Shown: positions 17,154 to 39,273 of the stretch, in pieces
How positions within the stretch are numbered: position 1 is the first letter of the stretch
Layout: each line of letters opens with the position of its first letter
Source: Nakazawaea peltata
Taxonomy: Eukaryota; Ascomycota; Pichiomycetes; Alaninales; Pachysolenaceae
Reading direction: 5' to 3'
DNA: 64,000 nucleotides
Assembly (NCBI GenBank): GCA_001599355.1
Contig: BCGQ01000001.1
Location: 933,135 to 997,134 of the forward strand
The notes under the pieces: generated by a model
Seen by the model: the letters and a program-made list of their open reading frames with translations, nothing else
What the model was told of the DNA's origin: nothing
Databases searched by the model: none
Position numbers and translations under genes: made by a program

Positions 17154-18314
17154 ATGAAATTACATTCGAGAGTCTTGTACGTCGTGGTATTACCACTTTT
17201 CGTACTTCTGGCATTTCTGATCCATTCTTACATGTCTTTCCATACAGTGTCCTACTCCGACATTCAACGGGTAATTAACAAGCATAATAATGTGGATCAA
17301 TTTAGACAGATCCCATCGTCGAAGCCGCTGATTAGATTCTTGACATGGAATTTGAAGTACGATAAGTTCAAGGATTTTGAAACCGTGGTAGATTCCGTAG
17401 AGCTGATGTCCAAAGAGATCCCAGATATTTCCAAGATAAATTCATACAGTATGGTGGAAGAGGTCAGTTGGACTCAAAGAAGATTTGGGATTGTGAACGA
17501 GATTTTATTCAGTGACCCAGACGTTTTCTGTGTTCAAGAGCTGATGAAGAACCAATTGGACGATTTGGATGAGATGTTATCGTTTGGATGGAAATGGCTT
17601 GGTAAAGCCAGAGATGATGGTGAAACCGATGGTGAACATACGCTGGTCTTCTTTAGAAGATCCATGTTTAATCTTTTAGGTGACCGTACTATTTGGTTGT
17701 CTGATACTCCATTTGAGATTTCACAGTATCCGGGGACTATTGCCAGGAGAATCCTGACCATTGTTAGATTACAACATAAGATCACTGGAGACAAATTCTC
17801 GGTGATTAATTCTCATTGGGATCCGGAATCTGAAGAGGCCAGACAATTATCGGCTAATTTGATCAAGTATATTGGAGCCCATGAGTATGGATTACATGAA
17901 CTTGTGTTCTTTGCTGGAGATTTGAACTCACCTTCCTCTGGTAAGAAAGCTACTCTGTATAATATCTTAACTGGAGATGTGAAGACGACATTCCAACAGT
18001 CCGAAGATCCGGCTTTCAACCGTGAGTATCACAGTGCTTATTTCAAGGATTTCAAATTCAAAGATTTATTGGAACTCACTCCACCCCAAGCCAGACTGGG
18101 TAACATAGGTACTGCTACTGGGTTCAGAAAACCAGCTAAAGGTGGCATCGAAAGAATTGATGTTCTCATGGGAGGTACTTTTGGAGATGAACATTTAGAT
18201 ATGAATAGAAAGAAGTTCGAAGTACTAAGATTTAAGACTGGGGATAACCTTTATGATAATGGTGTGATGCTTTCTGATCATAGACCTGTTTATGCTGACA
18301 TTATATTTTATTAA
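17154..18314 (+). CDS. Membrane-anchored endonuclease/exonuclease/phosphatase-fold protein
   Basis: Member of the Mg-dependent EEP superfamily (DNase I, sphingomyelinase and inositol phosphatase relatives), 386 residues. Residues about 7-26 form one hydrophobic signal anchor, so the catalytic part probably faces the secretory lumen or cell exterior. The superfamily residues are all visible: N66 in TWNLKYD, E129 in FCVQEL, H221 in INSHWDP, D256 and N258 in AGDLNSP, and D375-H376 in SDHRP. They suggest an active phosphodiesterase or phosphatase. I do not recognise a characterised yeast orthologue, and the substrate (nucleic acid, lipid or phosphoester) cannot be told. Confidence 0.85.
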   Translation: MKLHSRVLYVVVLPLFVLLAFLIHSYMSFHTVSYSDIQRVINKHNNVDQFRQIPSSKPLIRFLTWNLKYDKFKDFETVVDSVELMSKEIPDISKINSYSMVEEVSWTQRRFGIVNEILFSDPDVFCVQELMKNQLDDLDEMLSFGWKWLGKARDDGETDGEHTLVFFRRSMFNLLGDRTIWLSDTPFEISQYPGTIARRILTIVRLQHKITGDKFSVINSHWDPESEEARQLSANLIKYIGAHEYGLHELVFFAGDLNSPSSGKKATLYNILTGDVKTTFQQSEDPAFNREYHSAYFKDFKFKDLLELTPPQARLGNIGTATGFRKPAKGGIERIDVLMGGTFGDEHLDMNRKKFEVLRFKTGDNLYDNGVMLSDHRPVYADIIFY

Positions 18315-18591: not shown

Positions 18592-20493
18592 CTATACATC
18601 ATTCGTAAAACTTGTAAATGCTTGATCCAAATCGTTTACTAAATCTTCATAATCCTCACATCCCACACTAAATCTTAAAATATTACCTTTAATACCAAAA
18701 GATCTCAAAGAATCCGAGTACAGCAGGTCAAGATTAACAAACAACGGATTTAAATTGGCCAATTCTACAGTTGTCTCTCCACCTCCTCCATTCCCACCAC
18801 TTCCCGGGCCTCCAGATCCAATAGTGGAATGTTCATTGGCCCCAGATAACGATTTTGATTTCGATTTAGGATTCACAAACTTGAATCGAGTCATTAACAG
18901 CTTCGCAATGTCCATAGATACAACCTCTATGGCAAATACTGGGTTATAGTAGCCGTTCAACTGACTCTCTACAAAACTATCCCCTTGTAATGATGAATGA
19001 TGTACCTTGATTACAATAGGATATCTGTCCAAATTCTTCAGCAAGTGTTTGATAAGTTGGAAAGTGTTAGAGCATTGTTGTAAAATTCTCATTTTGAATG
19101 TCCTGAGAGATCTTAATAGTAAGAAAGCATCAAAATTGGCGATATGAGAACCAAGACAGAATCTTTCCTCGATCAACTGAGCCTTCTCTTCTTTAGTCTT
19201 GGATACAATGAAACCAGCTAAGATATCACCATGTCCACTGAAATATTTAGTGGCCGAATGAATAATATAATCCAGTCCTTGTACAAATGGATCTTGTAAA
19301 GGTGGAGGAGCCAAAGTGGAGTCGACTACCAAAAGAGCACCTTTTGAATGAGCCAATTCCGAGTATTTTGATATATCAACACAATACCCTTCAGGATTCA
19401 TGGGCGACTCAATTATCATAATATCGTTAGCTGATAAGCTATCATAATCTTCAAGTGAGATTTTTTGTACCCCAGTCATTTTAGATAACAATTTGACAAC
19501 TTGATGGGTTCCTTGATATCCTGTATGATTAATGGCTATTTTCTTACAGTTCAAGAAGGTTAAAAGACCCATGATCGCGGAGGTTCCCGAATTATATAAG
19601 GTGACATAACCATTAGTGATATTTTCAAGAATTTTTTCCACCTTTTCAGAGTTCGGATGTGATGTTCGGGAATATTGGAAAGTGTCCATCGATAAAGTGG
19701 TTAATTGGGATTGAGGTTCTATATTGGATATCGATATGTTTTCCAGAGGTTGAACAAGTGGATTCAAATCTGTAGTAACAGATTTTGGATTCACTGTGGG
19801 GATATCATTTGGGTCTTTGAATATATCTAGAAGAGCATCATCTGAATGAATTAATCTTGTGTTAAAACCGAGCATATTTGAGGCTTGCTTCGACAGAGAC
19901 TGGTCATGGGACTGATTATTATTGTTTGATATCACAATATTCGTCGGTTGTATAGTAATGGTCTGTGGAGATGGTTCATCACCTCCTGTTACTTCTCCTG
20001 ATCCCTCTCTCGATCTCACTATGGCATTGTCTTGGGCTTTCCCGCTCTTACGTACCGGACCAATTCTATTCCTCTTCTTGAACGACGCAATCATTCCCGT
20101 ACTTATATTAATTTTGCTTCGATCATACCCGTGGATCTCCAAATAATACTCGATAGTATACCGAATCAACTGATCAGTGATTGGGACTCCTTTGGCGGCA
20201 TTCTCCGCTATGTATTGCTCCACCGATTTGATCACTTCCGGGTATTTGAGAACTGGAGTCTTCCTATAATGAATCAAATGTGGATTTTCTTCATACATAG
20301 CTCTAATTTTAGCTTCATTGACCACCCATGAAGAAAGTGTAGCCTGTGATAAGGCGAACCTATTCATGCTCCAAAACTTGTCTAAAGTCTGCCTTTGAGT
20401 CCTTCTAGGGGGGCCATTATAGTAGTCTAGAACTTGGATTTTCTGCTCCAATGAGGCTCTGGGGAGCTTGGTTGATTTGTTATTGGTATCCAT
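18592..20493 (-). CDS. Fusion of CENP-B-like DNA-binding domain and cystathionine gamma-synthase-type PLP enzyme
   Basis: One uninterrupted frame of 633 residues. Residues about 10-147 resemble the double helix-turn-helix of CENP-B, fission yeast Abp1 and pogo/Tc5-type transposases, ending FKKRNRI. A Ser/Asn-rich linker follows to about 205. Residues about 208-630 form a whole Cys/Met-metabolism PLP domain: NTRLIHSDD, the substrate/PLP motif YSRTSHP (274-280), ESPMNP (362-367), the pyridine-contacting D391 in VVDST, the Schiff-base K416 in HSATKYFSGHGD, R464 in SLRTFKMR, and the C-terminal LRFSVGCEDYEDL. A Gly/Ser-rich insert interrupts it near 545-575. Baker's yeast Str2 and its relatives lack this DNA-binding part. 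It could be a metabolite-sensing regulator, a DNA-tethered enzyme, or an enzyme with a borrowed domain. No DDE transposase domain is present. Confidence 0.88.
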   Translation of the reverse strand: MDTNNKSTKLPRASLEQKIQVLDYYNGPPRRTQRQTLDKFWSMNRFALSQATLSSWVVNEAKIRAMYEENPHLIHYRKTPVLKYPEVIKSVEQYIAENAAKGVPITDQLIRYTIEYYLEIHGYDRSKINISTGMIASFKKRNRIGPVRKSGKAQDNAIVRSREGSGEVTGGDEPSPQTITIQPTNIVISNNNNQSHDQSLSKQASNMLGFNTRLIHSDDALLDIFKDPNDIPTVNPKSVTTDLNPLVQPLENISISNIEPQSQLTTLSMDTFQYSRTSHPNSEKVEKILENITNGYVTLYNSGTSAIMGLLTFLNCKKIAINHTGYQGTHQVVKLLSKMTGVQKISLEDYDSLSANDIMIIESPMNPEGYCVDISKYSELAHSKGALLVVDSTLAPPPLQDPFVQGLDYIIHSATKYFSGHGDILAGFIVSKTKEEKAQLIEERFCLGSHIANFDAFLLLRSLRTFKMRILQQCSNTFQLIKHLLKNLDRYPIVIKVHHSSLQGDSFVESQLNGYYNPVFAIEVVSMDIAKLLMTRFKFVNPKSKSKSLSGANEHSTIGSGGPGSGGNGGGGETTVELANLNPLFVNLDLLYSDSLRSFGIKGNILRFSVGCEDYEDLVNDLDQAFTSFTNDV

Positions 20494-21255
20494 GATGTTG
20501 TTAGAGCATATTAGGTGTATAATATGAATTTGTGATTGTTGTGAAGAGATGATTTATAGATGAGGTTGAGTAATTGGGCTATTTTACACGACCAAATGAT
20601 TAGGAAATACTCGGCAGGGTTCAGGAGATTGGTAGTGAATGTTTACTCAATGTCCGTATCGGGTAATTACACATGGTATCTGGTTAGGGAGGCAGGGCTA
20701 GGGAGAGTCACGGTTAAGGACAGCCAGGGATGGAGGAGAGCCAGGAACAACAGGAACGGAAGACTGGTGGTATAGAAATATTACTTCAATAAAGTGTATG
20801 ACTGAAACAATGTAGTGGTATGATAATATTCATACATAGAAACTATGTATATCAGTGTATACTGGACTACCACCCTTGTGTACTACTATTACTATGTACT
20901 ACTACTATGCACTACTATACACTACTATATACTACTTTGTACTATTATGCACTATTAATATATACTATTTATTACTATGTACAGTTTTTCACTACTTACT
21001 AAATTGCTACGTTTTTACAACTTTTACAACTCTCCTTTAGTACTCCAACGCTCTCACCGAAGACCAAATCAATTTTTCCTTCCTCTAAAATCAAAGAAAA
21101 AACAGGTAATCAATTTGAGAAAAGCGACTTTTAAGGAGACTTTAAGGAGACTTTAAAGAAACCACTTGTTAGGCTAGAGGTATTGTTGAACTGTTGACAG
21201 TGGATACGTATCTTTTTTGGACTAAGAAATCTTCATCGAGTAGTTGTATTAGATT
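20494..21255. other. Intergenic region, divergent promoters of the fusion gene and VPS74
   Basis: A 71-residue plus-strand frame at 20560-20775 has no recognisable content and sits where the fusion gene promoter should be, so I do not call it. TACACGACC occurs at 20585-20593, about 92 bp upstream of the fusion gene start. A low-complexity CTA/ACT tract lies at 20868-20997. Confidence 0.6.
20868..20997. repeat. Imperfect CTA/ACT trinucleotide-rich tract
   Basis: About 130 bp made almost entirely of variants of TACTACTATG and CACTACTATA. The copies are too irregular for a clean unit. It lies about 260-390 bp upstream of VPS74. Confidence 0.7.
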
Positions 21256-22281
21256 ATGTCATCGGGATTACAAAGACGCCGTGGAGGCGGAGGAGCAAGT
21301 GCTGCAACGGTTCCAACGCCGGCGGTTAACGATTCTTCGGATGATCTTCCTTCGCATAAGATTGCATACGATCCTAATGACATTGAGGAATCAAACGGCG
21401 GGAGTCTGGGATCTTCTGGAGTTCCATTCTTGACTTTGATGGAGGAGGTATTGTTGATCGGATTGAAGGATAAAGAAGGATACTTAAGTTTCTGGAACGA
21501 CAATATCTCGTATGCATTGAGAGGTTTGATCATTTTGGAATTGGCATTTAGAGGTAAGATTTCCATGATCAATGACCCGCTGAGAAGAAGATTCGAATTG
21601 AGTGATAGATTGATCGAAGTTATCGATGACAAATTGACCGGTGAAGTATTATTGGATGAGCTGTTGAAATTGATGAAAAATGATCCAGAACATTTGAGTG
21701 TTAGTCAATGGATAGATTTACTTTCTGGAGAGACTTGGAATTTGATGAAGATCAATTATCAATTGAAGCAAGTGAGAGAAAGATTGGCTAAAGGTTTGGT
21801 CGACAAGGGTATATTGAGAACTGAGCGTAAGAACTTCTTCTTATTCGATATGGCAACCCATCCTTTAGTCGATTACACCCCAAAGAAATTGGTTATAAGA
21901 AGAATTTTGAACTTGTTGGTCGACAGAACTTTCACTATTGAGAATGATAACAAATTTTTCACCGATGAGACAAGTTTCCAAAACTTGAGAACTATCTCTT
22001 TATGTTGTGGTTGTTATGCTGCTAATGTTTTGGAGAACATCTTGATCGATTTGAATTATGATCAAAGAGATAAAGCATTTGGAAGAGCCGATGAATTGAT
22101 TGCAAATTATAGTGTCTTGCCATTTGGTAATGACACAAGAGCCGGTGTTGGTTTGAACTTGGGTGGTGCTGTCACCGAGGAAATTGATCAAGAAAAGAAC
22201 AAAGACAAAAATGTTGATTTGAGAGTCGAAGTCATCGCCGCTGTCTTGAGTGTCTTCAGTAAAATGGACAGTATTCTTTAA
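21256..22281 (+). CDS. VPS74: GOLPH3-family Golgi PI4P-binding adaptor
   Basis: Peripheral Golgi protein that binds phosphatidylinositol 4-phosphate and the tails of glycosyltransferases to retain them in the Golgi through COPI. The 341-residue product (345 in baker's yeast) has a short disordered N-terminus with an arginine cluster (QRRRGGGG), then the GPP34 domain from about residue 55. The very conserved core [20 protein letters not shown] and [10 protein letters not shown] is easily seen. Codons 109 and 136 are CTG where Vps74 has Ala (NDSARKRF; LLDEALKL, also Ala in human GOLPH3), which supports alanine decoding. The start is the first ATG of the frame. Confidence 0.97.
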
Positions 22282-27200: not shown

Positions 27201-28038
27201 TTATAAATCCTTCAATTTCTCAGTGTTCTCTGGTTTGACAATATCTCTCCATTCCATCAAGTTCAGAGACATGTTCTCAGCGTAAAACTCAGGGTAATTG
27301 TCTTTAATCACTTTCATGAGCCCATTGAAGAACAGCTGGTACCCATAGCCATTGAAATGGATCCCATCCACTAACAATTTCTCTGGTGCTACACCCAACT
27401 TAGCAGCGAATTGAGTGAATTCCAGGTACAAATCGAGAACTGCAACATTGAGAGATGATCCAATGTCTTTCAATACTTTGGCATACTTCAAATTGACCTC
27501 ATTGGCTCTTTTTCCACTGTCTGGAGTGTACTTGTCAAATCCCTCCCAAACTGCAGCATCGTAATATGCTGGAGTGACCAAAATCACTTTAATTCCTCTT
27601 GAAATCAACTCATTTGTGATCTCAGTCATGTTTTCTTTATACTCGTCTAGCTCAACGGTTTGATCCCCTCCTTGAGAGGCATCATTAGTACCAAAGAACA
27701 CATACAGAATCTTGATCTTACGAGATTCTGGCACCTCATCGTGATCTTGCTGTAAAATTTTCTTCAAAATGAACTTGGCCTGTCTGGAATTGTATCCTGA
27801 GAATCCTCTTTGAAGAACATCGAGTTTTCTCGTGTAAGCTAGTCCAATTGTTAGTCTTTAATCTCCAAAGTTCACCTCTAAATCATTACTTACCATTAGT
27901 CAAGGCAGGGCCCAAAGCGAACTCAACTCCCGATGAAGTTTCTGCAATATCAGGGTTAAGAAGGTATGGTCTCTGGTTGAAAGAGTACTCGGTGATGGAA
28001 TCACCAAATATCAAGAATTTGTTCAAATCAAAAAACAT
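27201..28038 (-). CDS. IAH1: IAH1-like SGNH esterase, copy 1 (two exons)
   Basis: Predicted esterase of the isoamyl acetate-hydrolysing Iah1 group, which cleaves acetate esters. Exon 1 is 28038-27894 and exon 2 is 27838-27201 on the minus strand, giving 260 residues (238 in baker's yeast). The SGNH residues are present: S14 in FGDSIT, N100 in FFGTNDA, and D206/H209 in DGIHFNGYG. Joining the exons gives LTNAYTRKLDVLQRGF, matching Iah1 (EYTRKMDILQRGF). The C-terminus lacks an evident peroxisomal signal. It is the left member of a tandem pair with the gene at 28570-29398 and converges with the YCII-domain gene. The gene symbol denotes the family; which copy keeps the ancestral role is unknown. 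Confidence 0.93.
27839..27893 (-). other. Intron of IAH1-like copy 1
   Basis: 55 nt on the minus strand, donor GTAAGT, branch site GACTAAC, acceptor ACTAG. It interrupts a codon after its first base, at the same protein position and with the same length as in copy 2. Confidence 0.92.
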
Positions 28039-28569: not shown

Positions 28570-29398
28570 TTATAAATCCTTCAATTTCTCGGTATTCTCT
28601 GGCTTGATGATATCTTTCCCTTCCATCAAGTTCATAGGCATGTCATCAGCATAGAGCTTGGGGTACTTATTTTTGATTATCTCCATAAGCTCCCGGCGGA
28701 ACAGTAGGTAACCGTAACCGTTGAAATGGATACCATCCACCAACAATTTCCTTGGGTTATCAAATCCCCACTTCTCATAACGCTCGTCGAAGGCCAGGAA
28801 CAAATCGAGAACTGGGACGTTGAGAGCAGTTCCAACTTCTTTCACGACTTTGGCATACTTCTTATTGGTCGCAGTGGATCTTGGTCCATTATCTGGAGTT
28901 TTCGGGTGGATGCTATACCACACATCAGCATCATGATAAGTTGGTGTGACCAAGATAACCTTAATACCTTTTGCAAGCAAGTCATTTGCCATCTCAGTCA
29001 TGTTGGCTCTGTATTCCTCTAACGGAACGTTTTGAGCACCTCCTGATGCATCATTGGTACCGAAGAATACATACAGAATCTTGATCTTGAGGGAATCTGG
29101 CATCTCATCATCTTCCTTCAAGATCTTCTTCAATATGTACTTGCCTTGTCTGGAAGTGTATCCTGCGTAGCCTCTTTGAACGATATCGAGTTTTCTCGTG
29201 TAGACTAATGGAATTGTCAGTATCAGATGTCCAAGTATCCCCTCTAATTCATTACTTACTAGTAGTTAAGGCAGCTCCCAAAGCAAACTGATATCCTGTT
29301 TGTTTCTTATGAGGGTTAAGAAGGTAAGGTTTTGAGTTGAAACTGAATTGGGTGATGGAATCACCAAGCATTAAAAATTTGTTCAAATCGAAAAGCAT
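28570..29398 (-). CDS. IAH1-like SGNH esterase, copy 2 (two exons)
   Basis: Tandem paralogue of the gene at 27201-28038 with the same predicted acetate-esterase role. Exon 1 is 29398-29260 and exon 2 is 29204-28570 on the minus strand, giving 257 residues. S14 (LGDSIT), the Asn of FFGTNDA and the Asp/His of DGIHFNGYG are kept, so it looks active. Joined exons read LTTIYTRKLDIVQRGYAGY. Both copies end with PENTEKLKDL. Divergence is spread along the protein, with clear changes in the middle (about residues 135-190), the region that shapes the substrate pocket in SGNH enzymes, which hints at different substrates. Confidence 0.92.
29205..29259 (-). other. Intron of IAH1-like copy 2
   Basis: 55 nt on the minus strand, donor GTAAGT, branch site TACTGAC, acceptor TTAG. 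It has the same phase and position as in copy 1, so it predates the duplication. Confidence 0.9.
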
Positions 29399-31570: not shown

Positions 31571-34500
31571 TCATTGAAGTGAGACTCTGTGTTTAATTCT
31601 GAATGGTAAGCCGTACAACACAGGAGCAGCTCCGTTAAGATATTTCAAATTGCAAACATCTCTGGATCTCATAACCAGATGTGCAATGCTCTTATTTCCC
31701 TTCAGAGGCTCGAATAATCCCCATCTCTCAAAAAGTGACACTGTAAATTTATCTATATCTTTGTCGGTGACATCCCACAAATTTACAAAACACATTGGAG
31801 AGTTAGCGATCAAATGACTATAGACTGGACCGTAAGGCTCAAGAAGTCCGTTTTCATGCAAAACACCACTAGAACATCCGATCAAAAGAGATGGACAACA
31901 CCGTTCTAAAGATTTGATAGTTGATGATTTTATATACTGGTCTCCACTACCATGACCTAAATAAATCAAAAGATCACAAGTAGAGAGCAGACTTGCAAAT
32001 TGTTCTTCAGAAGGTTTCTGACCAACAACTCCGTTCCATTGCTCAAGAGTTTCAAAAGTATCCTTGAAATTACCCTCTGTCTTGACCAAATCATTATTAG
32101 GGTTGATAATATAGTAACCTTTATCTACAGATAATTCTAAAGAGGGGTTTTGTCTAAGTAACTTGGTCAACATCACTAGGGATGGCATCCTAGATACTGA
32201 CTTCTCTCTCATACATGGCAATGACTCCCAAGGGAAGTTACAGCAAGATTTTCCAACAACCAAAACAGTATGGTCGAACTTCTGGAAATCTCTCATGATA
32301 TTGTCATTGTCATATTTGGCTACAAGCTCCTCGATATCCACATATAAGTGATCAAAATCGATCTCATCGACCGAGTTGTGTTCACCATGATACAACAAGG
32401 TATCAATTACAAAATATATCAAGTCTTCTAAGATCTCTGTGGACAGAAGAGGCGGTTTTNATTTGGTGAAGAATAACTCCAATACCAGGTCATGGATTTC
32501 GACTCGATTGTTCAGTTTCAGTTTCTTATTGAATCTTGAAGGGAGATATTGGTTTAAGATGATCTCGAACTTTTGTTTAAATTGCAGGATCAAGTTCTTA
32601 TTTGCTCTACTTTGGTCGAAGATTCCCAGGAAGCCTCCTAACCAAGACGACTCCACTTTGTTGAGTAATTCTTGTAATTCCGAGTCCAATTGTCTCCTCT
32701 CATCCCACCATTGTTTTTTATCCTCCTTTGTCTTGATCTTGGATATTCTCTCGATCTTGGTGGTGGAATTACTGTTGTCGATGATCTCTTTTAATCGTCT
32801 CATAGCGGTATCGAAGGTTAACATGGCTTCCTCATTACCCAAATCATTCAGTGCAAGCCTTGTTAAAGGTAATCTTAGGAAGAAGGGCTCATTCAAGCTG
32901 TTATCGTATCTAGTAAGAAGCAAATCACCAGAATATGAGCATAAATCGATTGTGATCACATTCCATGAGCTAGGAAGATGACTCTTCAAATCTTTCATTA
33001 TAGACCCTGGAACTACGGTGGTATCTACATCATTATTTAAGGGATCTGGGATCGTTTGGTGCAGGTCCTCAGGTCTCGCAGCTAACAGTCTCTCAAATTC
33101 GAGGGGAAAGAATCTCGCTAACTCGTTTTGCTCATACAATGGAATTGTAGATATGCTATCATCGACTATAGAGTGCCTTAAAGTGGATTCCATACACATC
33201 ACCTTTCCACAATCAAATATATCCATATTCCGTAAAGTTTTAAGGTGAATATCATTGGAAAGGGTGTCCTGGATCAATTGTGAGGAGGAATTCAAATTAT
33301 CGAGTACCTTTTTTACGATCTGAGATGCTTCATTGGTGGCTCCTGGCCTTGAAGCAGGTATCGTAACTACCGATTCCTCTACACCTGAAAGAACTGCATC
33401 AGATTGAAGACAGTTCTTGGCAGTTAATAAGCTCTTTTTCAGCAAGATGATATTCTCTTTAGCAGTGAGGTTTCCAACACCTTGAGCCCCCTGAGCCAAG
33501 GTCCTAGAGTGATCCAATTTGAAGAACCTCTTAAATTCCATATCTAATTTCATATTGTGAATCCATTCTGGCTCTCTACCAATTAACTCTGTCAATATCG
33601 AGGTGAATTTCCCTGTTGAAATATCATTCATGAAATTATCGGCCTTCTTCAAATATACAGCCTCGTTCTTAGAGTCTCCCACCATCTGGAAGTAAAACAA
33701 ATGAGTAAGTAATCCTCTCAACTCAAGAAGATCTTCCTCAAAAGCGATTCCATTATAAATGCTATCACTTTTGATCATCAACTCATTTGCCAGAACGAAT
33801 TTATGACAGAATAAGTAGAATTCAGCTACGAAGTAGTATACATAACAACAAGAAGCTGGAGATTCCTGATGCTGTACAAATTGAAGTAATTCTTCAACGT
33901 AGTAATGACAATTCTTGGTCATTCCACGGTGTAAATTCAAGTCTACGCCATACTTCAACAGATTTACCAATACATAAGAGATGCTCCACTTGAGGACATT
34001 AAGTTCGACCATATCGACATTTCCAAGGGATTCTATATGTTTCAGGAGGATCACTTTGTTCAACCTGATACTTCTACGGATATCGATTATGGCATTTAAG
34101 TAGTCGTGGAGGAGGGATTGGCGAAACATGGATGATAAAAGGGAAAACTTAGCCAATATATGAAGAACCTGTATGACATTGACTCTTGTGAGGGCATTTC
34201 CTTTGATATTAAACCTTTGATCTGTTTTCAAACAATCAATAATCTCACTATATAGAGTCAGGGCATGCTCCTTCAGTTGGGTCTGGATATAAATCTGAAG
34301 TTGTAATAATTTCAGGGACATCTGTTGAAGGGGTAGCTGAGTTTTTACGTCTTTAAGTACTTCTTGAGCTTCTTTAGAGAACTCAAGATCACATAAAATC
34401 TCACATAATCCGATCTGAAGTCTAGATCGTTGTGATGTGAGAAGAACCAGTTCTCTTGTGCTCATATATTCTTTATAAAGAGAGATGGAGTATGCAAATA

Positions 34501-36910
34501 AGTTCTGGTATTTCAAGTAGGATGAGAGAAGAATCACAAACTCGAACTCAAGGTCAAATAAGAGCTTATTGTCATTGACTGATGAGTTAGGCTTGATGCT
34601 GAGCCACCTGTTGAACAAATGAACACATCTCATTACGATATTCTGGTTCAACGAGCGATTAATCGAGTACTGAAGGTAATTATAACAGACAAGTAATTCT
34701 TTCATAGTAGAAAGAGTCGAATCCATAGGAAACATCTTCTCGTTGAACTCTTTATAATTGATATGAGTAAAACTATCGAGTCCCATCACATTATAATATC
34801 TGATAGATATATATTGAAGAAGTGAGAGATCTTTGATAGTACTTTGAGCATCGTCCATCATCTCGTTGACCAAGATCGTCTTACCATCTACGTTAATTTT
34901 ACTTAGTCTTCTAAATATGCAACTGATCACAAGGGTTTGTAATTTCTCGTTAGAGAGTCCTGTCAAATTCAAAGATCTTGATGAGCTAGCTGCTTTTATC
35001 AATAGTCTAAAAGTGATATCCAAAGTTTGGTCGAACTGATGCTCGAGCTGGAGGAAGTCTCTTTGTGGGAGACCTTTTACTTTTATGTAACATTGTAGAT
35101 TTTTGAATAAGAATACTTTGGCTTCGTGGGTAGCTCCTTGCTCTAATATGGAATTAGCGATCCTCTCTACCTTTTGTCTGAAAACTTTGAAGTCATTCGC
35201 CAGCAAAGACTCGCTGAAAACATTGTATTCGAGATTAATACAGTCCATCCACCGTTGATATGACTCTTGAATGTTCAAGGTGACAAGCTCATTCCCATAT
35301 TTGAAGTATATATTGGATAAAAACCTGTATCTTATGATTTGTTTATGTTTACGATAGATATTAGCCAATAATTTGACGGCTTGGACTGCACTTTCGGAGA
35401 AATTTGTCGAAGAGTACATGAAATTCAGACAATAATCGGCAAAATCGGTGACTTGTTTGGAAGAAGCCGAGGTTCTGGGATTATATTTCAGTATAGGTTC
35501 GAGGATATTGGCCAAATAATCCACTTTTACTTCAAGTGAGATCTCTTCCTTCTTAAGAATCTTAGACGTCAACCTAATTAAGGTCTTGATGTTCTCATTA
35601 TCTACAATTAAGTCTTTGAGATACTCAAAGATCTTAGAGATATCGGTTTTTATAGTTTCTGGGTCACTTGTGATGAATAAATCTGACTCTATATCCATAT
35701 CTTGGGGGTCTGCTAGTGTGAGAGATTCATTTTTTGCAGTCACAAACCGATCCCAGTTAAAATCATCATGGATGAACAACAGACGATGAACATTCTTTAT
35801 CTGTCTGAATATTAAAACACATTTCTGTAATAAATACAAACTGTTCAGACTTTTCTTCTTATTGATAAAGTTGAGTAACTCGTAGAACTGACCTGAACAA
35901 TTTTGGTAGACGGATTTCTCATTGATATTAGCTATGGTTTTGGAGATTATGGTCTCTAAATGTGAAACAATGGCCTTTTCATCTGGTGAATTCAACGCAA
36001 ATACCATTGATATCACCAAGTAATTGATACGGACAGAGCCTTTCGAACCATTACTGTACTGAACTAACAATTTTCTCATCATTTCAAATTTATGAGATTT
36101 CTCTTCTGGTGTTTTCAAAGAGTCAAACCACGAGATCATATCCTTATCTAGCACTTTTAAGAGGGTTGCCGGAGGGCATATTAGATGTTGTGGGACACCA
36201 TTTCTCAATTTGAAATCGGTCACCACCAGTTTTACAAGTATTATATACAGAGTTGTTATATCTTTGGCAAATCCAGCACTAAAGATTTTGAAGGGGGCAA
36301 TTCCAGAAAGTTGTTCAATGGCTTCCTTTGCAGATCTCACTTTGGTGGTATCTAAAGGTTTATTATGACCTTTTCTTGTTATCAAGGAATGTATACGGCG
36401 AAAATTCGCATAAACCAAGCAGACTGCCATCTCCAATGAGTCTTTGTCGGTGAGTTTTAGGTATTTCAACAGGGCGTCGTTCCTCAACCTGATCAAATTA
36501 TCTCTTTCCCGGTCAGCAGATTCATTCCCATCGTGTAATATACTATCCAATATCTGAAAACTTCGTAGTAAAATGTCATGATCCAGACGAGATTCCGCTT
36601 GAAGAAGGGAATCTGATCGGAGACTTTGATGGATGATCTCTAAACACTTTAATTCCATATCTTTCTTGTCGAATTTCTCCTGATGAAGCGTTGAAATTGG
36701 TTCAGAGCGCTCAGAGCGACGTCGAGACCTCTTCTCTGTCGCTAAAACAGGCGCCTTGTTAGGACTTATGGAGAGATGGGCCAGGAACTGATCAAGAAGA
36801 GCTTCAGTTTGAGCCGCTGAAATCAGCGGATCACTCAAAATACCACCGCCCAACTCATTTTTCTCGTCTATCACACTCTCATTCGGCGGCATTGTCCGAT
36901 TTAACACCAT
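31571..36910 (-). CDS. ESP1: Separase
   Basis: Caspase-like cysteine protease (family C50) that cleaves cohesin at anaphase after securin is destroyed. The product has 1779 residues (1630 in baker's yeast). The first 1300 or so residues form the long helical-repeat region. The C-terminal protease part carries VVGKSCCNFPWESLPCM, the catalytic H1653 in YLGHGSG and the nucleophile C1679 in LLIGCSSG, followed by SPMCFVNLWDVTDKDIDKF. One base (32460) is given as n, which leaves one residue unknown but does not break the frame. A second Met seven residues in (MPPN) could also be the start. It converges with the RRG8-like gene, with only 14 bp between the stop codons. Confidence 0.97.
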   Translation of the reverse strand: MVLNRTMPPNESVIDEKNELGGGILSDPLISAAQTEALLDQFLAHLSISPNKAPVLATEKRSRRRSERSEPISTLHQEKFDKKDMELKCLEIIHQSLRSDSLLQAESRLDHDILLRSFQILDSILHDGNESADRERDNLIRLRNDALLKYLKLTDKDSLEMAVCLVYANFRRIHSLITRKGHNKPLDTTKVRSAKEAIEQLSGIAPFKIFSAGFAKDITTLYIILVKLVVTDFKLRNGVPQHLICPPATLLKVLDKDMISWFDSLKTPEEKSHKFEMMRKLLVQYSNGSKGSVRINYLVISMVFALNSPDEKAIVSHLETIISKTIANINEKSVYQNCSGQFYELLNFINKKKSLNSLYLLQKCVLIFRQIKNVHRLLFIHDDFNWDRFVTAKNESLTLADPQDMDIESDLFITSDPETIKTDISKIFEYLKDLIVDNENIKTLIRLTSKILKKEEISLEVKVDYLANILEPILKYNPRTSASSKQVTDFADYCLNFMYSSTNFSESAVQAVKLLANIYRKHKQIIRYRFLSNIYFKYGNELVTLNIQESYQRWMDCINLEYNVFSESLLANDFKVFRQKVERIANSILEQGATHEAKVFLFKNLQCYIKVKGLPQRDFLQLEHQFDQTLDITFRLLIKAASSSRSLNLTGLSNEKLQTLVISCIFRRLSKINVDGKTILVNEMMDDAQSTIKDLSLLQYISIRYYNVMGLDSFTHINYKEFNEKMFPMDSTLSTMKELLVCYNYLQYSINRSLNQNIVMRCVHLFNRWLSIKPNSSVNDNKLLFDLEFEFVILLSSYLKYQNLFAYSISLYKEYMSTRELVLLTSQRSRLQIGLCEILCDLEFSKEAQEVLKDVKTQLPLQQMSLKLLQLQIYIQTQLKEHALTLYSEIIDCLKTDQRFNIKGNALTRVNVIQVLHILAKFSLLSSMFRQSLLHDYLNAIIDIRRSIRLNKVILLKHIESLGNVDMVELNVLKWSISYVLVNLLKYGVDLNLHRGMTKNCHYYVEELLQFVQHQESPASCCYVYYFVAEFYLFCHKFVLANELMIKSDSIYNGIAFEEDLLELRGLLTHLFYFQMVGDSKNEAVYLKKADNFMNDISTGKFTSILTELIGREPEWIHNMKLDMEFKRFFKLDHSRTLAQGAQGVGNLTAKENIILLKKSLLTAKNCLQSDAVLSGVEESVVTIPASRPGATNEASQIVKKVLDNLNSSSQLIQDTLSNDIHLKTLRNMDIFDCGKVMCMESTLRHSIVDDSISTIPLYEQNELARFFPLEFERLLAARPEDLHQTIPDPLNNDVDTTVVPGSIMKDLKSHLPSSWNVITIDLCSYSGDLLLTRYDNSLNEPFFLRLPLTRLALNDLGNEEAMLTFDTAMRRLKEIIDNSNSTTKIERISKIKTKEDKKQWWDERRQLDSELQELLNKVESSWLGGFLGIFDQSRANKNLILQFKQKFEIILNQYLPSRFNKKLKLNNRVEIHDLVLELFFTKXKPPLLSTEILEDLIYFVIDTLLYHGEHNSVDEIDFDHLYVDIEELVAKYDNDNIMRDFQKFDHTVLVVGKSCCNFPWESLPCMREKSVSRMPSLVMLTKLLRQNPSLELSVDKGYYIINPNNDLVKTEGNFKDTFETLEQWNGVVGQKPSEEQFASLLSTCDLLIYLGHGSGDQYIKSSTIKSLERCCPSLLIGCSSGVLHENGLLEPYGPVYSHLIANSPMCFVNLWDVTDKDIDKFTVSLFERWGLFEPLKGNKSIAHLVMRSRDVCNLKYLNGAAPVLYGLPFRIKHRVSLQ

Positions 36911-37179: not shown

Positions 37180-39273
37180 CTAAAATTTAGATCCTAATTT
37201 AGCTAATACTTCTGGAGATTTGGCTTGCCTCTCACGTACTTCTGGAGCATCTCTTTGTAATCCTTTCAACCATTGAGTAGCATAAGATGGCTTATCGATA
37301 CGTGGATCATTACGAGCCTTGACAATAGTGAAATAATCATTGTAGAAATCACCATTGTAATTACCCAAAGCTGAGTTGATGTAATAATCAGAAAGAAGGA
37401 AAGCATCGGTCAAACCGATTACTTTGTCTTTCAAATCATTGTACAATTGCTTTAAATGAGTAGATCTGATCTCCAAGAGAGTGGCGTTATCCAAAATGTC
37501 AAATTGCAAGAAGGCACCACTAAATTTCTCAATCATTGCTAAGGCATGTACTTGCAGAAGTTTGATTAAACTATCTTTGATATTTCCTTGGGCTCCTAAA
37601 TCTGAATGGATCTTCTTCACCATAGTTTCCAAACTGTAGTAGTGGGCATATAATTTAGAGATGGCAACTTTTTCAACACCAAATAAGTCCCAGTTGTCAT
37701 TATTCTTTTTCAATTCCTCATTCACATAAATAGCATACTTGACAATACACAGTTCAAACAGTTTCACTAATTCAGACAAGTCTTTGCAATCTTTCAATTT
37801 GAAATCCATGCTTGACTTATAATTATTAATAAATGACATATCTCCAGATACCTTCTTTCCCTTCAAAGCAGATCTGATGGATTGGATAACAATTCTACCA
37901 CCATTCATGGCCAAAACATTATTGTCACCCTCCCAAGTACACTGGACAACCCAGTCGGTATACAGTTTACCGAAACCAGAGTACAGGGAATAACCGTGAC
38001 CTCCACAAGCTTGTCTACATTCATCGATCAAGCCCAGGGTATGCCAAGTGAAAGTAGACTTTAAAGAAGCGGAAGATCCAAATACGTTCTTCATCATATT
38101 TATAGCAATTCCAATGCTCTTCAAGTCTTGAGTGGTTACCAGTTTCTCCAAATATGCAATTGAAGCAAAATGATCCAGACGTAAACGACTAGTGGCTGCC
38201 AGAGCCAGGTACAGGTACAGTAACAAAGGAATCAACCTGTGTTGGTGTAATGGGTATGAGATCAACTGGGTCTCGTTTCCTTGAGCACCAAATTGTCTTC
38301 TTCCTACAGCATATCTTAACAGTACAGTAACGAATCTAGCACCTGTTCTGTAAGATTCTTCCACCATTGTAACTCTTCCGGTCAATAATGCACCATATGA
38401 CAATTGTTCCAAAGGAGGAATAACAACTTCACCAGTCTCATCATCAATTTGACAATATTTAGATAACATGTATTCCTTTGGAATCTTCACATTTGTGAAC
38501 TGGATCCAACCATTGTCAATACCATCTCTACCCATTTTAGAGCCGATATCACCTACAGCGACACCAGGCATGAGGTTATGATCTGAGTCCCTCAATGGGA
38601 CGACAAAAGTCTTCACACCGTAATCCTTGTTTCTGACGATTAATCTCAGGTATGCTACACAATAATTCAGGGAATGAGCAGCTCCTCCAATCCACCATTT
38701 GGTAGCACCAATATGAGGAGTATTGACGGTGAATTGACGAGTCTTTTCATCATAAGTCAGAGTGGTCTCCAATCCTGGAACATTGGAACCATGGGCCATC
38801 TCAGTCATAGCGAAACATCCATAGATTTCAGAACATTTATAGGCGCCCCTCTCAAAAATCCAGTACTCAAATTGTTCCTTGGTACCATTGCCTCTGATCA
38901 GGTTCAAAAACAATCCTAAATGAACACCAATTCTTGTACCAGTTTGAGGGTCTGAAGCGCTGATCAGCGTTAAGCGCTCTTGGAATTTGTCCAAGTTAGG
39001 GTAATCTTTCTCCATATAGAAAGCCAATCTTGCGATTTTCTCAGCGGTACGGTCACGATGCTCTTCTTTAGTCAGATCATAGTACTCACTAGAAGAATGC
39101 AATATAGGATCCCTTTCCAACTCGAGGAACGTCAGCTGAAGACTCTTTGACTTTTCCGCCGAGCCTTCTAAAAACAGATTCATCAGGTTCAAATCAAAGT
39201 CGGTATTCAGTCTCAGAGCCTGAATGGAGTTAGCAGGAGCAGGAGCTTGGGATATCTTCAGTTCCTTCACCAT
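37180..39273 (-). CDS. POX1: Peroxisomal acyl-CoA oxidase
   Basis: First enzyme of peroxisomal beta-oxidation: FAD-dependent oxidation of acyl-CoA to trans-2-enoyl-CoA with H2O2 formation. It has 697 residues, a normal length. The core shows GCFAMTEMAHGSN and WWIGGAAHSLNYC, then VGRRQFG, QACGGHGYS and WEGDNNVLAMNGG. Codon 430, within GGHGYS-x-YSGF, is CTG where yeast oxidases have Ala. The C-terminus SKF is close to a type 1 peroxisomal signal (SKL), whereas several Candida oxidases lack one. Only one copy lies in this window. Confidence 0.95.
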   Translation of the reverse strand: MVKELKISQAPAPANSIQALRLNTDFDLNLMNLFLEGSAEKSKSLQLTFLELERDPILHSSSEYYDLTKEEHRDRTAEKIARLAFYMEKDYPNLDKFQERLTLISASDPQTGTRIGVHLGLFLNLIRGNGTKEQFEYWIFERGAYKCSEIYGCFAMTEMAHGSNVPGLETTLTYDEKTRQFTVNTPHIGATKWWIGGAAHSLNYCVAYLRLIVRNKDYGVKTFVVPLRDSDHNLMPGVAVGDIGSKMGRDGIDNGWIQFTNVKIPKEYMLSKYCQIDDETGEVVIPPLEQLSYGALLTGRVTMVEESYRTGARFVTVLLRYAVGRRQFGAQGNETQLISYPLHQHRLIPLLLYLYLALAATSRLRLDHFASIAYLEKLVTTQDLKSIGIAINMMKNVFGSSASLKSTFTWHTLGLIDECRQACGGHGYSLYSGFGKLYTDWVVQCTWEGDNNVLAMNGGRIVIQSIRSALKGKKVSGDMSFINNYKSSMDFKLKDCKDLSELVKLFELCIVKYAIYVNEELKKNNDNWDLFGVEKVAISKLYAHYYSLETMVKKIHSDLGAQGNIKDSLIKLLQVHALAMIEKFSGAFLQFDILDNATLLEIRSTHLKQLYNDLKDKVIGLTDAFLLSDYYINSALGNYNGDFYNDYFTIVKARNDPRIDKPSYATQWLKGLQRDAPEVRERQAKSPEVLAKLGSKF

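Follow-up and report, generated by a model that had tools for sequence, protein, structure and literature searches.

The window analysed here, a 64,000-nucleotide stretch of contig BCGQ01000001.1 from the Nakazawaea peltata assembly GCA_001599355.1, carries on its minus strand a complete fusion gene (positions 18592-20493), a single ATG-started open reading frame of 633 codons plus stop which has no internal stop codons, needs no intron to be read through and was translated with NCBI table 26. From the N-terminus, the predicted protein comprises a CENP-B_N-like first helical region (residues 10-80; minus strand, as are all parts of the gene, 20254-20466), a Tc5-type helix-turn-helix (HTH; residues 84-145; 20059-20244), a linker which is basic at its start (residues 148-206; 19876-20052) and a PLP domain of the Cys/Met-metabolism type (residues 207-633; 18595-19875). 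An earlier note on this DNA had proposed that one unbroken frame of 633 codons holds both a DNA-binding half and a PLP-enzyme half. This proposal is borne out by the ATG start, the lack of internal stops and the presence of two Pfam families above their cut-offs, and the residues which the note had named (YSR, ESPMNP, D391, K416 and VGCEDYEDL) are all found in the translation. The locus occurs once in its own genome (11,631,020 bases in 11 contigs). As a reading frame the fusion is genuine, and it is known from one genome, the fungal genome searched being that of the window itself.

On one side the gene is flanked by a gene at 17154-18314, which resembles the endonuclease/exonuclease/phosphatase family with a Pfam score of 24.2 bits, just below the cut-off of 24.5, and on the other by a GPP34 gene at 21256-22281. 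Between the fusion and the GPP34 gene, their divergent upstream region contains, at 20880-20979, a degenerate tandem array of TACTACTATG-like units with a 10-base period, in which seven overlapping 40-base copies can be laid out, the six others being 63-75% identical to the reference copy; a perfect 11-base tandem repeat is located at 21130-21151. Elsewhere in the window, two similar adjacent frames on the minus strand (27201-27767 and 28570-29133), which we take to resemble GDSL/SGNH-type esterases, look like a tandem duplicate, and a 1779-residue frame at 31571-36910, with an ambiguous base that appears as X in the translation, is separase-like by look only.

The genetic code of the host bears on how all these proteins are to be read. 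The reading of CTG was checked on the fusion gene, on an acyl-CoA oxidase gene at 37180-39273 and on loci L009 and L011-L013. In five Cys/Met-family genes aligned to prokaryotic homologues, the commonest consensus residue opposite 42 CTG codons is alanine (14 codons; leucine, 4), with mean column frequencies of 0.307 for alanine and 0.083 for leucine; 95 TTG codons give 0.440 for leucine and 0.052 for alanine. The acyl-CoA oxidase gene has 25 CTG codons, 24 of which lie within the alignment to 5ys9; counted by eye, 12 of these stand opposite alanine (for example, residues 125, 172, 202, 318, 352, 413 and 437), one opposite leucine and the remaining 11 opposite residues of other kinds. Pfam scores also rise when CTG is read as alanine, namely those for the fusion PLP domain (from 170 to 174.8 bits), the DDE_1 domain encoded at locus L008 (35.5 to 44.7) and the L010-encoded HTH (50.2 to 51.7), whereas the HTH of the fusion is nearly unchanged (25.2 to 25.4) and that of L008 goes slightly down (33.6 to 33.0). 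With the CTG columns favouring alanine, both the standard code and the CUG-Ser code were rejected for the host. CTG codons in the Cys/Met genes and in the acyl-CoA oxidase gene, together with the Pfam scores, thus indicate that CTG most likely encodes alanine and that the host most likely belongs to the CUG-Ala clade (NCBI table 26), so that the proteins of the window should be translated accordingly. Pachysolen is placed in the order Alaninales, and a passage of PMC5951914 includes Pachysolen, Nakazawaea and Peterozyma in the clade. Seven residues of the fusion (200, 250, 407, 485, 532, 590 and 591), given as leucine in the translation accompanying the earlier note, become alanine under this code.

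In the DNA-binding half, the HTH_Tnp_Tc5 family is matched at residues 84-145 with an E value of 1.4e-5 and a score of 25.4 bits against a curated cut-off of 22.2 (CUG-Ala translation; E 1.6e-5 with the standard code). The CENP-B_N model reaches 12.2 bits (E 0.15), below its cut-off of 21.2, yet the region still aligns with three related genes of the same genome, which encode proteins of 702 aa (L008:710-2818; HTH above cut-off and DDE_1 present), 594 aa (L010:1812-3596; HTH above cut-off) and 300 aa (L017:1210-2112; HTH at 18.5 bits, below cut-off). With these three, residues 10-80 share RA.L.QK...L, a tryptophan and E...R. The alignment of the whole half, made with standard-code translations, has 17 invariant columns, including R12, A13, L15, Q17, K18, L22, W56, E60 and R64 in its first part and S131, G133, F138, K139 and R141 further on. 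The three genes have the look of domesticated transposase-type regulators forming a small family. Among them only L008 has a DDE_1 match, and we take this HTH plus DDE_1 gene to be Pdc2-like; the DNA-binding half of the fusion resembles it and lacks DDE_1, no match being found in the fusion by hmmscan up to E 0.1. A DDE_1 profile search of the genome gave no match, although hmmscan finds the domain in the L008 protein, so the genome search evidently misses divergent copies.

Structural comparison of this half is suggestive only. The Tc5 region is modelled as three helices (85-100, 107-120 and 132-141), with ten-residue pLDDT means of 70-85 over residues 81-140, whereas the first region (10-80) is modelled poorly and with low confidence. 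The model of the half as a whole, a poor one with a mean pLDDT of 53.2, has CENP-B (1hlv) as its top Foldseek match in the PDB at a non-significant E value of 1.9. When the HTH profile was compared with solved chains, CENP-B (1hlv) and Abp1 (1iuf) were among the 15 matches listed, with non-significant E values of 1.3 and 0.86; another search for solved relatives of CENP-B or Abp1 returned no such match. The label of CENP-B type which the earlier note had attached to this half therefore rests on the Tc5 match, the kinship with the three genes and a poor model headed by CENP-B; the Tc5-type HTH stands, and the CENP-B_N part stays below threshold.

The second half belongs to the Cys_Met_Meta_PP family (PF01053), its best Pfam family, matched at residues 265-540 with E 2.7e-51 and 174.8 bits against a cut-off of 27 (CUG-Ala translation; from residue 263 with E 7.7e-50 under the standard code). 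The nearest relatives found by sequence or fold are S. pombe C23A1.14c (7yeo), 9uuw and a stand-alone paralogue on contig C7 of the same genome, referred to here as C7. The full-length model, built from the standard-code translation and an alignment of 35 of 80 loci (the best 80 of 597), has 7yeo as its top fold match (E 1.5e-29, with a TM-score of 0.78 when normalised by target length). Its ten-residue pLDDT means are 83-98 over residues 281-540, and values fall below 50 in the N-terminal arm (220-269) and in an insert (541-570). Frames of 373-461 residues were found in 79 of 80 prokaryotic enzyme loci (again the best 80 of 597). No relatives were found in viral contigs (15 pattern matches, 0 relatives) or in a first scan of prokaryotic contigs (18 pattern matches, 0 relatives).

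For residue-level comparison we used 82 proteins, namely 79 prokaryotic sequences, taken from the best 80 of 597 relatives confirmed against C7, and three paralogues from this yeast; the partial L101 was dropped, and the set excludes an STR2-like protein, the weaker PF01053 matches (L024, L025 and L027-L029) and relatives from the PDB. At 13 of 13 positions which we take to be cofactor or substrate contacts (Y274, R276, S302, G303, Y326, E362, N366, D391, T393, S413, T415, K416 and R607), the fusion matches the family consensus of this set. Lys416 (19246-19248), presumably the lysine that forms the Schiff base with PLP in the family, is a lysine in all 82 comparison proteins and in C7.

One loop is the exception. 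It is 8 residues long in 82 of 82 comparison proteins (79 of them from the best 80 of 597) and in C7, as well as in S. pombe C23A1.14c and 9uuw, and 28 residues long in the fusion, where it reads SLSGANEHSTIGSGGPGSGGNGGGGETT and contains 20 extra residues, a Gly/Ser-rich insert at approximately residues 550-569 (18787-18846; the exact ends depend on the alignment). The sequence SLGGVESL occupies the loop in 73 of 84 aligned rows and variants of it in ten (79 of the rows from the best 80 of 597 relatives); from work on cystathionine gamma-lyase, we take this loop to lie at the substrate site and to carry a serine that tunes specificity. The earlier note had described an apparently intact, complete enzyme. 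Given a constant 8-residue loop that has grown to 28 residues, this description has to be given up, though all 13 contacts are kept. By sequence, a fused frame thus brings together two families, with the contact residues kept and the loop interrupted; the interruption alone does not prove that catalysis was lost. Because the cofactor pocket is kept and a loop of constant length is disrupted, the idea of a sensor becomes more plausible and that of an enzyme less so.

Outside the loop, the enzyme core is not decaying and its divergence is no faster than that of C7. Of 109 columns conserved at 90% or more, 73 are kept in C7 and 62 in the fusion in an alignment set taken from the best 80 of 597 and biased toward C7, and 79 of 79 prokaryotic proteins in the same C7-biased set are closer to C7 than to the fusion (means of 0.345 and 0.275). 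The bias arises because candidates were confirmed against C7 and just the best 80 of 597 entered the set. Against the CYS3-, STR3- and MET17-like yeast paralogues, the fusion matches 75 of 260, 67 of 259 and 78 of 261 columns, and C7 matches 76, 72 and 75 of the same columns. An argument from faster divergence of the enzyme half than of C7 was dropped, the prokaryotic set being C7-selected and the yeast paralogues showing no consistent difference. The fusion keeps 39 of the 46 columns that are identical in four yeast paralogues. It differs at 16 of the 73 conserved residues which C7 keeps (set from the best 80 of 597), in some cases conservatively; six of these 16 differences fall among the 11 of the 73 that lie at C7 positions 322-342 (hypergeometric P 0.011, with sites treated as independent).

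A core retained to this extent, with 39 of 46 columns kept and paralogue matches as frequent as those of C7, also fits a working enzyme. The protein might accordingly be bifunctional, its PLP domain still an active sulphur enzyme and its DNA-binding region serving for chromatin placement or in a second role. The full set of contacts, Lys416 and Arg607 included, the unhurried divergence of the core and the confident model of residues 281-540 speak for this possibility. It is nonetheless an unlikely one, considering the 28-residue loop in place of a constant 8-residue one, the low pLDDT of the N-terminal arm and the intact C7 paralogue, which could provide the activity. If, conversely, the PLP fold were a dimerisation scaffold only, with PLP structural or unused, the retained core fold and the interrupted substrate loop would fit, yet there would be no need to keep Lys416 and the other contact positions, and we regard this explanation as improbable. 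The low-complexity insert could also mark a recent or drifting fusion with no settled role and heading to decay. To this we give only a slim chance: the frame runs for 633 codons without a stop, divergence of the core does not outpace that of C7, and the in-frame codon score is positive for every part of the gene, even though in the insert region it is nearly equal to that of another frame (+15.7 and +14.1, respectively).

Whether the two halves are made as one protein depends largely on the linker and its surroundings. In its own frame, the linker of 59 codons (148-206) contains no stop and scores +6.8 bits, compared with -49.5 to +1.0 bits and at least one stop in each of the other five frames, and its GC content is 0.446 versus 0.356 in the intergenic DNA upstream of the gene. 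It looks coding-like on these measures; in the full-length model, residues 147-193 have pLDDT values below 50. The consensus intron signals GTATGT, GTAAGT and TACTAAC are absent from the fusion gene, and a hidden intron or splicing within it appears unlikely from the sequence. Weak splice-like words do occur, namely GTACGT at codon 147, GTATGA at codons 66 and 122, and CTAAC at codons 355 and 475. The first ATG of C7, which we assumed to be the start of that paralogue, lines up with Met207, and the prokaryotic relatives shown begin within 1-2 residues of this position. It looks as though an entire enzyme gene had become attached to a DNA-binding region lying upstream.

The position of Met207 would equally suit a gene with two products, in which the PLP protein alone is made from about Met207 through internal initiation, an internal promoter or splicing, the last of which could draw on the weak words at codons 147, 355 and 475. 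The coding-like linker, with a GC content above that of the upstream intergenic DNA, argues against such an arrangement, as do the sizes of the three other HTH genes: at 300, 594 and 702 aa, their products are larger than the 147-206 aa of a stand-alone HTH product. The chance of two products seems at least as slim as that of decay. The last explanation to be weighed, and the least credible of all, is an assembly or sequencing artefact that fused two genes. Among the best candidates scored, the other matches in the genome are only 48% identical to the enzyme half and 29-30% identical to the DNA-binding half, too distant for the join to have arisen as a chimera from them; moreover, the join is in frame and falls at the natural start of the enzyme. 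Profile searches of the genome found HTH_Tnp_Tc5 at four places, three of them above the cut-off including the fusion, and at least 12 matches to Cys_Met_Meta_PP; among the matches listed, the fusion is the only locus common to both families.

The explanation which we consider best, with a probability of roughly 0.4, is that the gene encodes a regulator in which a Pdc2-like DNA-binding region is combined with a modified paralogue of a cystathionine-synthase-type enzyme, the latter serving as a PLP-holding dimeriser and sensor. Under this explanation, the gene would have arisen by the joining of a Pdc2-like (Tc5/CENP-B-type) region to a full duplicate of the stand-alone trans-sulphuration-like enzyme which the genome still carries as C7, and the enzyme half would have retained its fold and PLP-anchoring residues while its substrate-site loop became interrupted. 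The PLP domain would dimerise the protein and thereby pair two DNA-binding units. Occupancy by PLP, or an external aldimine between PLP and a sulphur amino acid (Arg607 being kept), may then alter the dimer, and the altered dimer may have changed activity at sulphur or vitamin B6 genes. We infer here the binding of DNA and of PLP, dimerisation, the loss of catalysis, the ligand and the targets. A pocket that is kept, an interrupted substrate-side loop, an added DNA-binding domain and an intact paralogue alongside are features to be expected of an enzyme turned sensor, and the class of ligand, PLP or a sulphur amino acid, is suggested by the enzyme family. The fuller proposal, that the protein is an independent eukaryotic realisation of the MocR principle, is put forward tentatively and is less likely than not. 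In it, a domesticated transposase-type DNA-binding region would be combined with a PLP domain of the cystathionine-synthase type whose substrate loop is interrupted, and the protein would sense PLP, or a sulphur amino acid, in the form of an aldimine and directly control sulphur or vitamin B6 genes.

We take the yeast protein YHR112C to be a C7-type enzyme. A passage of PMC9763685 gives YHR112C, a member of the PLP family, as a target of Met4, which makes a link to sulphur metabolism possible, and according to an excerpt of PMC9757880 the use of H2S is not lost upon its deletion. The region upstream of the fusion contains no CACGTG and no Met31/32-type words, and one TGACTC is present. Words shared between this region and the upstream regions of five sulphur genes do not exceed those in shuffled sequences (9-mers, 25 shared and 23.65 on average after shuffling; 10-mers, 6 and 6.3; 11-mers, 3 and 1.4, the shuffles reaching at most 6); starts were set mechanically for this comparison, and the stretch used for C7 runs into a divergent frame. 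These results neither support nor exclude sulphur genes as targets. No activation or repression domain was recognised in the fusion by Pfam.

The closest relatives of the enzyme half, C23A1.14c, 9uuw and C7, differ from the fusion in their intact 8-residue loops and in size. C7 has 374 aa and the solved chains 398 and 380 aa, compared with 633 codons in the fusion, so that none of them has room for a DNA-binding half. CENP-B and Abp1, for their part, are weak and non-significant matches to the other half. To our knowledge, the architecture of the fusion has not been described to date, and searches of open-licence papers turned up none that names it.

Two known systems parallel the proposed mechanism. 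Pdc2 itself carries a CENP-B-type domain; we found no statement on this domain in the literature searched. In Saccharomyces and Nakaseomyces, as set out in a part of PMC11304959, the DNA-binding regulator Pdc2 forms a complex with Thi3, a relative of pyruvate decarboxylase which is enzymatically inactive, binds thiamine pyrophosphate and can serve as a sensor. The likeness lies in the combination of a DNA-binding regulator with an inactive, cofactor-binding relative of an enzyme, and the pair is the nearest tested precedent in yeast for the proposed sensor; however, Pdc2 and Thi3 are two proteins and rely on thiamine pyrophosphate, whereas the fusion is one chain with a PLP domain of the Cys/Met family. 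The layout of the fusion is that of the bacterial MocR, GabR and PdxR regulators, in which a linker connects an N-terminal HTH with a PLP domain of fold type I that has many conserved cofactor residues and, in the few cases tested, shows no significant catalysis, as described in a section of PMC4944035. A passage of PMC5320631 presents MocR proteins as widespread in Bacteria and absent from Archaea. They combine a GntR-type winged helix with an aspartate-aminotransferase-like domain, in contrast to the Tc5-type HTH and Cys/Met-metabolism-type domain of the fusion, in which no Pfam match to GntR was found up to E 1 and Aminotran_1_2 reaches 17.2 bits, below its cut-off of 19.7. The suggestion in the earlier note of a eukaryotic equivalent of MocR thus holds for architecture and by analogy and fails for membership in the family. 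If the preferred explanation is correct, the fusion would be a eukaryotic metabolite sensor and DNA-binding protein in one chain, derived from a metabolic enzyme, with an intact stand-alone paralogue in the same genome for comparison, and its evolutionary route would be directly testable with the two paralogues. It would then have reached independently the route taken by Thi3, from a relative of an enzyme to a cofactor sensor acting with a DNA-binding regulator, and by the MocR proteins.
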